A stretch of 48,940 nt of DNA from a virus. Both the position numbers and the translations under genes were made by a program. The notes under the pieces are model-generated. The model was given only the letters and a program-made list of their open reading frames with translations, made no database searches and was not told where the DNA came from. Below, piece by piece: positions 42,718-45,571 of the stretch. Position 1 is the first letter of the stretch. Each line of letters starts with the position of its first letter. The stretch spans positions 1 to 48,940 of IMG/VR virus record IMGVR_UViG_3300037502_002031; one strand, written 5' to 3'.

Positions 42718-42830
42718 GGTTAGCGGCGTGGTATGAACACGCGGAGTTGAGAAGACTCGCATCGGCGTAAAACGGTCTACTGCAAATTGACCGACAAAGC
42801 CGGAAAGAAGGTGCAAATCCTTCCTAACCT
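42718..42830 (+). ncRNA. tRNA-like RNA B, next to tmRNA
   Basis: 113 nt ending 5 bp before the tmRNA. GGTTAG/CTAACC forms a 6-bp end helix; GAAGG-TGCAAAT-CCTTC is a T-arm-like hairpin stacked on it; GCGTG-GTATGAA-CACGC and GAGT-TGAGAAG-ACTC hairpins and a CGGTC/GACCG arm fill the centre. It shares the TGCAARU T loop with the element at 8241. No anticodon arm with U33 could be found. Confidence 0.55.
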
Positions 42831-42835
42831 TTTTC

Positions 42836-43174
42836 GGGGATGAACAGGTTTCGATTGGATGGTCAAAAGAACGGAGCATGACGAAGAAGATTGCTAGGCT
42901 TCGTAAAAATGCAATCAAACAAGAACTGCCAACCGCAGACTTGCCCTCGCTGCTTGATCAGCGAACGAATCGCAACTGACCCCGATATGGGGCGATTCGC
43001 AATCATCGGGACTTGAGCCACAAGCCTCCATCGTGCTTGGGTTCATAAGACGAACGATGGAAAACTTGCCAAGGGTGTCCATGCCCAAGGCATTTCAAAC
43101 TCACATGGACTAATCATGTAGCCGCCGCTCTGGCGCACCATTTCAACACAGGGGTTCGACTCCCCTCATCTCCA
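42836..43174 (+). ncRNA. ssrA: tmRNA (transfer-messenger RNA)
   Basis: 339 nt. Acceptor GGGGATG/CATCTCC, T arm AGGGG-TTCGACT-CCCCT and a 3' A (no encoded CCA). The 5' region has the conserved GGTTTCGATTGG ... GAGCATGACGAAG, and the 3' part CATGTAG, as in bacterial tmRNA. The tag frame at 42928-42957 reads Ala-Asn-Arg-Arg-Leu-Ala-Leu-Ala-Ala-stop, the ALAA end being the ClpXP degron; the -4 A before the resume codon is kept. The stem CGAATCG/CGATTCG after the tag matches helix 5. It rescues stalled ribosomes, possibly with phage-biased tagging. Confidence 0.93.
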
Positions 43175-43191
43175 TTACGAAAGGAACTTCA

Positions 43192-43386
43192 ATGGACATC
43201 GAAGATTTCATAATCCATGCGAACATAGGAGAGTTCGCCCGAAAGGTTGCATGGATAGTGCAGTTGGAGGACGAAGGGAAATTCACATCGTCCAAGGCGT
43301 TTGAAGAGATCAAGAAACTCTACATACAATTGAAGGAAACAAAGGAACTTGCAGGAGAAAGCAATGCAGCAGGAAGATCGATTTGA
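43192..43386 (+). CDS. Hypothetical protein, 64 aa
   Basis: Not recognised. Helical (ANIGEFARKVAWIVQLEDEG; FEEIKKLYIQLKETKE). CGAAAGGAAC site directly after the tmRNA. Confidence 0.75.
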   Translation: MDIEDFIIHANIGEFARKVAWIVQLEDEGKFTSSKAFEEIKKLYIQLKETKELAGESNAAGRSI

Positions 43387-44017
43387 CAGACAACCACTCA
43401 ATGAGGTTTCGCTTTCGAGAATTGCTTCTCATGTCAAGAACCGCCCGTTTACTCTCCTTACTGCATTCCGTTTCAAGGACAAGCAAACAGGAGAACCAAT
43501 CTCACTTCAAACCAATCGAACCAACAACGCAAAACTTGAAAATGACATTCGTGCTGCGGGGTTTGGGTTCGAAAAACTGATTGGTCGCTACGAAGAGGAT
43601 TATGGCAACGAAAAGGTCATGGTCACCGAGGAATCCTTCATGGTGATTGGACGAGACAACAGCCCTGCAACAGTAGGCGGCGTAAAGGGCTTTGCCAAGA
43701 AAATGGGACAGAAGTACGGTCAGGATTGCGTACTCTTCAAGGATCCGAATCAGGAAGAAGCGGTGCTGATCGGTACACGCGAGGGAGCCTGGCCAGGTCT
43801 TGGAATCGTTGCTCCTGTCGGAAAGTTCAATCCGATGCGACTCAACGGAATTTACACCGAACTCATCAAGGGCAAGAACTCAACAACTGCCCGTGGGTTC
43901 AAGTTTGAGCATGTCGAAACCCCGCTTTCAATTGTTGAAATCTGGGCAAAGAAACTACAGAGAAAGTTGAAGTCTGAAGATTATGGAAGAGACACAGAAG
44001 ACGAAGAAGTGGGATGA
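43364..44017 (+). CDS. DUF3293-like protein, 217 aa
   Basis: Pattern FTLLTAFRFKDKQ, then NNAKLENDIRAAGFGFEKLIG, ESFMVIGRD, the QDCVLFKD motif and a C-terminal GFKFEHVETP: resembles DUF3293-type proteins that occur in T4-like phages, function unknown. Start at 43364 (AGGAGAAAGC) overlaps the previous gene by 23 bp. Confidence 0.68.
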   Translation: MQQEDRFDRQPLNEVSLSRIASHVKNRPFTLLTAFRFKDKQTGEPISLQTNRTNNAKLENDIRAAGFGFEKLIGRYEEDYGNEKVMVTEESFMVIGRDNSPATVGGVKGFAKKMGQKYGQDCVLFKDPNQEEAVLIGTREGAWPGLGIVAPVGKFNPMRLNGIYTELIKGKNSTTARGFKFEHVETPLSIVEIWAKKLQRKLKSEDYGRDTEDEEVG

Positions 44018-44610: not shown

Positions 44611-44918
44611 ACCTGTTCTATGTGGACAGTACGGTTGAGACAATCCTTATCTTCACGCGACCCGACAAACTCAACATCGTGAAGGTCAAGTTCGGTCGTC
44701 ATGGCGAAATCGTGGGAGAGACCATGATGACGAAAGAGGAAGGTCGCCAGATGTGGGACGAACTTGTGCGAAACGGGTGGAAGCCATCTCTTGACGAGAG
44801 CGGCAAGCCGCGTGTCTCCGCTTCCTCCCATTCCTACTTCAAGGGTTATCAAGCATTTGATGACTTTGACTACAGCCCTTCCGCGAACTACGCGACAAAC
44901 TACGCGCTGACTGCATGA
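44559..44918 (+). CDS. Hypothetical protein, 119 aa
   Basis: Not recognised. Beta-rich N-terminal half (FVYTLNLFYVDSTVETILIF; IVKVKFGRHGEIVG), helix with KEEGRQMWDELVRNGW, Tyr/Ser-rich tail. Near-leaderless start; coupled to the deaminase-like gene by ATGA. Confidence 0.8.
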   Translation: MGEFQYQANGECFVYTLNLFYVDSTVETILIFTRPDKLNIVKVKFGRHGEIVGETMMTKEEGRQMWDELVRNGWKPSLDESGKPRVSASSHSYFKGYQAFDDFDYSPSANYATNYALTA

Positions 44919-45313
44919 ATCAAGTCGATTGCCCCTGCAACATCTACAAGTTGGCAAAGGAAATCTGCCTTCACATCGACCGCCCCAAGCGGCATTGCAG
45001 CATCATTCTGCGAAAGGGTCGCGTCATCTCCGTTGGCACGAATCTGCTGAAGACCCATCCGATGGCGAAGAAGTACGGATACCTGTTTGACGAACTTCAT
45101 TCGGAACTTGATGCGTATCGCAAGTGCGAGGATGATCGCAGCGGTCTTGAACTTTGGAATTTCCGTTTCAATCGTTTCGGCAACGAAAGGTTGAGTCGCC
45201 CCTGTCCGAAGTGCTTGCCTTGGTGCGTGGAGGTCTTTGACCGAATCTACTACACCACAGGCAACGGGATCGCTGAAATGCCCACGGATGTTATCGGACA
45301 TAAAATCCGCTGA
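44915..45313 (+). CDS. Cytidine/deoxycytidylate deaminase-fold protein
   Basis: 132 aa with the zinc-deaminase signature: His62-Ser-Glu64 (LHSELDAYRKC) where the Glu is the proton shuttle, and P96-C97-x2-C100 (RPCPKCLPW) completing the zinc site. The N-terminal ILRKGRVISVGTN strand pair and a C-terminal YYTTGN strand fit the fold. Substrate may be dCMP (T4 cd-type), a free base or a nucleic acid; short length and HSE instead of HAE leave this open. Supplies dUMP together with dUTPase if a nucleotide enzyme. Confidence 0.82.
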   Translation: MNQVDCPCNIYKLAKEICLHIDRPKRHCSIILRKGRVISVGTNLLKTHPMAKKYGYLFDELHSELDAYRKCEDDRSGLELWNFRFNRFGNERLSRPCPKCLPWCVEVFDRIYYTTGNGIAEMPTDVIGHKIR

Positions 45314-45357: not shown

Positions 45358-45478
45358 GTCAAAGTGCGGCGAAGAGGATTCGCTCCCTGCCCCGATTCGC
45401 TCGGGACTAGCCGCCCTCGTCTGTGCGAGGTTAAACAGGTTTTAGGCACAGAGCGGCAGGGGCGGGTTGCCCCTGCAT
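45358..45478 (+). ncRNA. Structured non-coding RNA or riboswitch-like leader
   Basis: About 120 nt from the promoter to a terminator-like hairpin. Visible hairpins: GCGAA/TTCGC, CCCGA/TCGGG, CCTCG/CGAGG, enclosed partly by GCGGC/GCCGC; then GCAGGGGC-GGGTT-GCCCCTGC (45456-45476). Two alternative pairings exist: TCTGTGC with GCACAGA (breaks the CCTCG hairpin), and CCCTGCC near the 5' end with GGCAGGG of the terminator. This mutually exclusive design is typical of attenuators, but a free small RNA is equally possible. No known family was recognised. Confidence 0.6.
45456..45476 (+). terminator. Terminator-like hairpin of the structured RNA
   Basis: 8-bp GC-rich stem GCAGGGGC/GCCCCTGC followed by ATAATATTTG; imperfect T-run. 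Confidence 0.6.
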
Positions 45479-45487
45479 AATATTTGC

Positions 45488-45545: not shown

Positions 45546-45571
45546 CCCCCACGGGTTCGAAACCGTGGGGG
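45546..45571 (+). terminator. Strong hairpin, terminator-like
   Basis: CCCCCACGG-GTTCGAAA-CCGTGGGGG perfect 9-bp stem, followed by ATGTTGTTAT. The loop region mimics a T arm (GGGTTCGAAACC), but no acceptor partner was found. Confidence 0.6.

Follow-up and report, generated by a model that had tools for sequence, protein, structure and literature searches.

The locus analyzed here raises the question of whether an uncultured phage encodes a complete tmRNA of its own, and of what the structured RNA lying immediately in front of it might be. The sequence comprises positions 1 to 48,940 of IMG/VR virus record IMGVR_UViG_3300037502_002031, and this 48,940-base fragment of an uncultured virus is called the window below. 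An initial reading made from the sequence alone (the sequence-only reading) had assigned the tmRNA to a phage, and this is borne out by the virus record and by its T4-like replication genes, which encode a clamp loader, a sliding clamp, a RegA-like translation repressor and a CobS-like protein. The nearest relative of the clamp loader is that of methylophage Melnitz (57%). The window also carries nine tRNA genes, none of which encodes CCA. The psbA gene (PF00124), a sign of a cyanobacterial host, was absent from 16 records.

Related phages were located by synteny with the protein encoded at 43349-44017 (+), which has relatives of 58-85% identity on 7 contigs, one of them 177 kb long. The contigs in the comparison are all metagenomic and mostly fragments. 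An exact-pattern scan of viral contigs for tmRNA 3' ends returned mostly apparent prophages at host ssrA, along with a few useful large metagenomic phages. The anchor protein itself, encoded directly 3' of the tmRNA, matches a SAM-lyase family (Pfam S-AdoMet_lyase, PF23780; 43.6 bits, cut-off 28) and is possibly an anti-restriction, SAM-degrading enzyme.

A complete one-piece tmRNA

The sequence-only reading had described a full phage tmRNA at 42836-43174 (+), with an acceptor stem and T arm, and had proposed an Infernal search with the tmRNA model as a check. That search (cmscan with Rfam) returned one RF00023 match in the window, at 42836-43177 (+), which covers model positions 1-374 and scores 117.9 bits (E 1.4e-45) against a gathering score of 47 bits; the gene is thus full-length and well above the cut-off. 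ARAGORN made no call for this tmRNA, so the initial reading found what a standard annotation tool misses, and ARAGORN is of no use as confirmation. The 7-bp acceptor GGGGATG/CATCTCC is paired at 7/7 positions, and the T arm is present as AGGGG-TTCGACT-CCCCT. The acceptor contains a G3:U70 pair, as do all eight tmRNA sequences compared; G3:U70 is the alanine identity element read by alanyl-tRNA synthetase. Position 43174, the 3' end of the mature body, is the discriminator base A, and TTA (43175-43177) occupies the place of CCA. Because CCA is encoded neither here nor in the nine tRNAs, a host enzyme must add it. The gene is in the standard order, and the model for permuted (two-piece) tmRNA, RF04321, scores only 21.6 bits. 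A search of 14 phage records, one of them 177 kb long, turned up no SmpB gene, so that the tmRNA must use SmpB from the host.

All four pseudoknots are present (+ strand), with compensatory substitutions on both sides among the relatives. PK1 (42881-42916) is formed by ACGAAG/CTTCGT and GATTGC/GCAATC, which become CGGGG/CCCCG and CCATGT/ACATGG in L126. PK2 (42966-43010) consists of CGAATCGC/GCGATTCG and CCCGAT/ATCGGG, and its ...GC/GC... pair is replaced by ...GT/AC... in L123 and by ...TT/AA... in L124. PK3 (43021-43060) has CAAGC/GCTTG and CCATCGT/ACGATGG, with AAAGC/GCTTT and TTCGCCGT/ACGGCGAA as the L123 counterparts, and the GTCCATG/CATGGAC helix of PK4 (43068-43110) is GTCCCTG/CAGGGAC in that same relative. 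A tmRNA above the RF00023 cut-off occurs in 7/7 relatives found by way of the neighboring protein. This conservation, together with pseudoknots that persist through compensatory change, argues that the window tmRNA is not a chance resemblance and is a real gene under selection.

The tag frame at 42928-42957 (+) reads GCC AAC CGC AGA CTT GCC CTC GCT GCT TGA, and its translation agrees with the tag ANRRLALAA, closing LALAA-stop, that had been read from the sequence; the ...LAA terminus likewise resembles ClpXP-type tags, as had been claimed. The frame has an alanine resume codon, a C-terminal AA and a stop codon within helix 5 (CGCTG/CAGCG). Among the 7 relatives, ANRRLALAA is kept exactly in four (L122-L125), with synonymous AAC/AAT changes and either TGA or TAA as the stop, while the other three carry ANKQPYRLALAA. 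The Arg-Arg pair is kept in all five close relatives, and the more distant sister group is the one with ANKQPYRLALAA, leaving only RLALAA common to the two groups. The window tmRNA is therefore a structurally complete, one-piece, phage-encoded gene whose position and tag are conserved in related phages.

A tRNA-shaped RNA upstream of the tmRNA

An RNA of about 112 nt that the sequence-only reading overlooked occupies 42718-42829 (+) and ends 6 nt before G1 of the tmRNA. This RNA, designated element X, scores 128.7 bits with R1, the covariance model built for it. Its closing stem P1 (6 bp, GGTTAG/CTAACC) is followed after 2 nt by a 5-bp second arm, GCGTG-GTATGAA-CACGC, and after 1 nt by a 4-bp third arm (P3), GAGT-TGAGAAG-ACTC. 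Next come a long arm with the conserved internal loop GTAAAAC/GACAAAG and a T-arm-like hairpin (P5), GAAGG-TGCAAAT-CCTTC, at 42807-42823 (+). The latter has 5 bp and a 7-nt loop, and it stacks on P1 with no intervening nucleotide, as in a tRNA cloverleaf; GGGTTCGAATCCC stands in the same place in L172, where the loop is a canonical T loop, TTCGAAT. The minimum free energy (MFE) fold of the window X is the same cloverleaf and reproduces 27/27 consensus pairs.

We therefore say that X is tRNA-like, judging by its topology, its junctions of 2, 1 and 0 nt, its T arm and a weak R1 match to T4 tRNA-Ser (18.7 bits). The likeness is one of topology, junction lengths and T loop, since the X sequences of the window and of L172 have no match to the Rfam tRNA model RF00005 up to E=10. 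No Rfam family of any kind was matched at E=5 or E=10, which argues against a riboswitch or any other RNA described in Rfam. A decoding tRNA was rejected as well, because the covarying helix leaves neither U33 nor a 5-bp anticodon stem. The 7-nt anticodon loop with U33 that characterizes RF00005 has no equivalent in X: P3 is only 4 bp, and its near-invariant loop UGA[C/G]AAG has G at position 2, where U33 would stand, in 37/37 sequences. With a 4-bp anticodon-like stem, G in the U33 position and no Rfam tRNA match, X does not look able to decode. The loops UGA[C/G]AAG, GUAAAAC and GACAAAGC are all near-invariant, which suggests that X binds something. No earlier description of X was found in the literature searched.

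Covariation and phylogenetic range of X

Two relatives, L124 and L125, were left out when R1 was built, and the model recovers X in both at 71 bits. Across an alignment of 11 X sequences, standard pairs fill 97.9% of pair cells, and both-sided changes occur at 14/27 pairs. A wider survey used two conserved-loop patterns (a 5' pattern and an arm pattern), with matches checked by R1, and brought the total to 45 loci and 38 distinct sequences, all in viral contigs of uncultured phages. For the 38 sequences, 98.2% of cells are paired, compared to 32-45% when the partners are slid; double changes are found at 18/27 pairs, and the covariation score was reached by 0/500 shuffles. MFE folds of 35 sequences, made without the alignment, recover 96% of the consensus pairs, with a negative z-score in 35/35.

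The arm pattern identified 33 viral stretches, all scoring at least 47.8 bits with R1. Applied to 257 Gb of genome sequence from bacteria and archaea, the same pattern gave 24 matches, all scoring at most 19.7 bits, and the 5' pattern gave none; X was thus not detected in 85,000 genomes from these two domains at the sensitivity used. Blastn searches of 50,697 cultured-phage records with four X variants also found none, one search giving short unrelated matches. X is therefore a conserved, covarying RNA, unrelated to tmRNA and without an Rfam entry, that is found here only in uncultured phages.

These data bear on the possibility that X is an aberrant tRNA gene or one in decay, perhaps of the serine type with a long variable arm. 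The cloverleaf, the tRNA-like junctions, the T loop and the weak match to T4 tRNA-Ser would all be expected of such a gene, but its strong compensatory evolution and near-invariant loops would not, and neither would its lack of an Rfam tRNA match. This origin is disfavored, and we regard it as very improbable.

Genomic settings of X

The 45 loci present X in several settings. In the most common, with 20 loci, X lies within the segment that separates the two halves of a permuted tmRNA; in the 12 of 20 that were measured the layout is 3' half ending ...CTCCA, 3-19 nt, X, 4-12 nt, and 5' half beginning GGGG. Among the X-bearing relatives, L149, L153, L155, L182 and others encode the 3' half before the 5' half. 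X precedes a one-piece tmRNA in 5 loci (the window and L122-L125), and in 8 more it lies outside a permuted tmRNA on the same contig, with tRNA-Tyr or tRNA-Pro as its neighbor when the flanks are readable (L183 holds only part of the tmRNA). Another 10 loci place X after tRNA-Arg(tct) in tRNA arrays, with L157 having a weaker tRNA-like match instead; no tmRNA was found on those 10 contigs, which reach 113 kb. In the last 2 loci, L184 and L187, X (still 84.5 bits) sits beside a decayed tmRNA. In every locus with flanks of sufficient length, X is close to the end of a tRNA or tmRNA. Its retention where the tmRNA is absent or decayed argues that its role is separable from that of the tmRNA; X is tied to tRNA and tmRNA transcription units yet is not dependent on tmRNA.

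Several other features were noted at these loci. The permuted tmRNAs of L184 (1-380, -) and L187 (2534-3010, +) are degenerate, each reduced to a tRNA-like part that lacks a tag frame, and X is intact between the halves. The intervening segment of the permuted tmRNA at L191 (438-946, -) contains a tRNA-Pro gene in addition to X. The tags of permuted tmRNAs in X-bearing phages (L149, L153, L155, L165-L191) end in MAA, IAA or RAA rather than LAA, examples being ANELAMAA, AAPMRMAA, AAPMRRAA and AEELAIAA. A 132-aa protein encoded in the window at 44915-45313 (+) has no Pfam or PHROG match, recurs as 46-53% identical copies in many X-bearing loci, and shows weak similarity to genes of Streptomyces phages that carry a deoxycytidylate deaminase annotation. 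A Pistol self-cleaving ribozyme (RF02679, 60.6 bits) lies at 45415-45482 (+) of the window and has counterparts about as far from the tmRNA in L122, L124 and L125; 3' of the window copy, at 45546-45571 (+) and outside the called tRNAs, is a perfect T-arm-like hairpin, CCCCCACGGGTTCGAAACCGTGGGGG.

Proposed roles of the two RNAs

The explanation that we hold with considerable confidence is a joint one, in which a complete, host-dependent phage tmRNA is accompanied by X as a separate, excised tRNA-like RNA. The X-tmRNA transcript would be cut by host tRNA-processing enzymes, with RNase P acting at 42836, followed by 3' trimming and CCA addition. The G3:U70 pair would allow host alanyl-tRNA synthetase to charge the phage tmRNA, which together with host SmpB and EF-Tu would enter stalled ribosomes and append ANRRLALAA, so that the tagged peptide could pass to host proteases such as ClpXP. 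Peptide tagging is inferred from the sequence, and the likely gain is additional ribosome rescue during an infection marked by mRNA cutting and the shut-off of host transcription. The sequence-only reading had put forward, as conjectural roles, sustaining the translation of leaderless, cleaved or overlapping mRNAs or redirecting tagged host proteins.

Alternatively, the phage tmRNA could be a competitor that ties up the SmpB of the host or takes the place of host tagging, thereby blunting host quality control. A phage without SmpB would suit such a scheme, and there is a precedent in the tmRNA of mycobacteriophage DS6A, which has only the tRNA-like domain, a similar molecule being strongly inhibitory to tmRNA (PMC4131195; PMC11915505); the degenerate L184 and L187 genes, which retain just the degraded tRNA-like part, invite the same comparison. 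A pure SmpB sponge, however, needs neither a tag frame nor four pseudoknots, and the window tmRNA keeps all of these under purifying change, which makes competition improbable as its function.

Our best guess for X is that it is an independent tRNA-like RNA rather than a tmRNA spacer, and that it would be released by the same tRNA-processing enzymes that act on its neighbors. It probably acts as a non-decoding tRNA mimic. A less probable role, though one deserving some weight, is that of an element acting in cis on processing or spacing, which would ensure that neighboring tRNA or tmRNA precursors are cut correctly and would then be discarded. Such an element should lie near a tRNA or tmRNA end, as X does wherever the flanks suffice, and could well occupy the space between permuted tmRNA halves, as X does in 20 loci. 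Its near-invariant loops nevertheless exceed what helix spacing needs, and exactly one copy occurs in each matching record. Many tRNAs of the same phages also lack a neighboring X, as do the one-piece tmRNAs of L126-L128 and the permuted tmRNA in Melnitz. X may be a phage tool directed at host tRNA biology, including the ribosome, tRNA enzymes and tRNA-cutting defenses.

X and a possible origin of permuted tmRNA

The occurrence of X both in front of a one-piece tmRNA and between permuted halves provides a natural test of how permuted tmRNA arises. The window X is closest to the X of three phages with permuted tmRNA, L149, L155 and L182 (tree support 0.85-0.88), and the tmRNA ends that flank X in L182 agree with those of the window at 21/23 and 26/29 positions. 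Among viral contigs, the junction pattern from X to the 5' half was found only in this group. If X stood in front of a one-piece tmRNA in an ancestor, a duplication in tandem and the later disappearance of the outer halves would leave precisely the order 3' half, X, 5' half. The reverse direction, in which a one-piece gene with four pseudoknots would have to re-form, seems less likely, and replacement of the tmRNA at a site marked by X is possible. The most inclusive proposal is that X represents a new RNA class in phages, tRNA-shaped yet non-decoding, present as a single copy and tmRNA-independent, whose placement records the origin of permuted tmRNA by duplication of an X-5' half-3' half unit; we advance it tentatively, at a little under an even chance.

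Relation to known systems

The window tmRNA shares with standard one-piece tmRNA (RF00023) the G3:U70 acceptor, the T arm, a tag frame ending in LAA, helix 5 and PK1-PK4, and differs in lacking an encoded CCA, in its tag ANRRLALAA, in being phage-borne and in adjoining X. Phage tmRNAs are an uncommon but already known kind, to which the window copy adds one case: they are documented in mycobacteriophages and Bacillus phage G (PMC4131195), were found in 402 of 18,146 phage genomes (PMC9004378), and account for 79 unique sequences in a 2025 tmRNA database (PMC11915505). Like those of mycobacteriophages Bxz1/Cali/Catera and Wildcat and of phage G, the window gene is complete and phage-borne; unlike them, it belongs to an uncultured T4-like lineage, has X upstream, and has sister phages that pair X with a permuted tmRNA. 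Methylophage Melnitz (Kyanoviridae; PMC9004378) is likewise T4-like, with the 57% clamp loader and a phage tmRNA, but its tmRNA is two-piece (permuted) and has a glutamine riboswitch downstream, whereas that of the window is one-piece. The Melnitz intervening segment (L163:1560-1710 (+), about 150 nt) was rejected as a carrier of X (best R1 score 7.8 bits); by eye, a short ATG frame there appears to follow a Shine-Dalgarno-like GGAG.

X is of more consequence than the tmRNA, being a recurrent, undescribed tRNA-like RNA that tracks tmRNA and tRNA genes. Among the stable RNAs of T4, rnaC and rnaD (species 1 and 2) are small RNAs of unstated function that lie beside tRNA-Arg within a T4-like tRNA cluster, as X does in the L142 group. 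Homology suggested by this synteny was rejected, R1 giving 10.5 bits at the rnaC region and nothing for rnaD. The closest parallel for the permuted loci is a permuted tmRNA with tRNA-Ala in its intervening sequence (PMC11915505), where a tRNA-like RNA again resides within a permuted tmRNA. The tRNA in that case is ordinary and comes from a single metagenome-assembled genome, nominally archaeal, whereas X is a non-standard cloverleaf that occupies this position in 20 phage loci.
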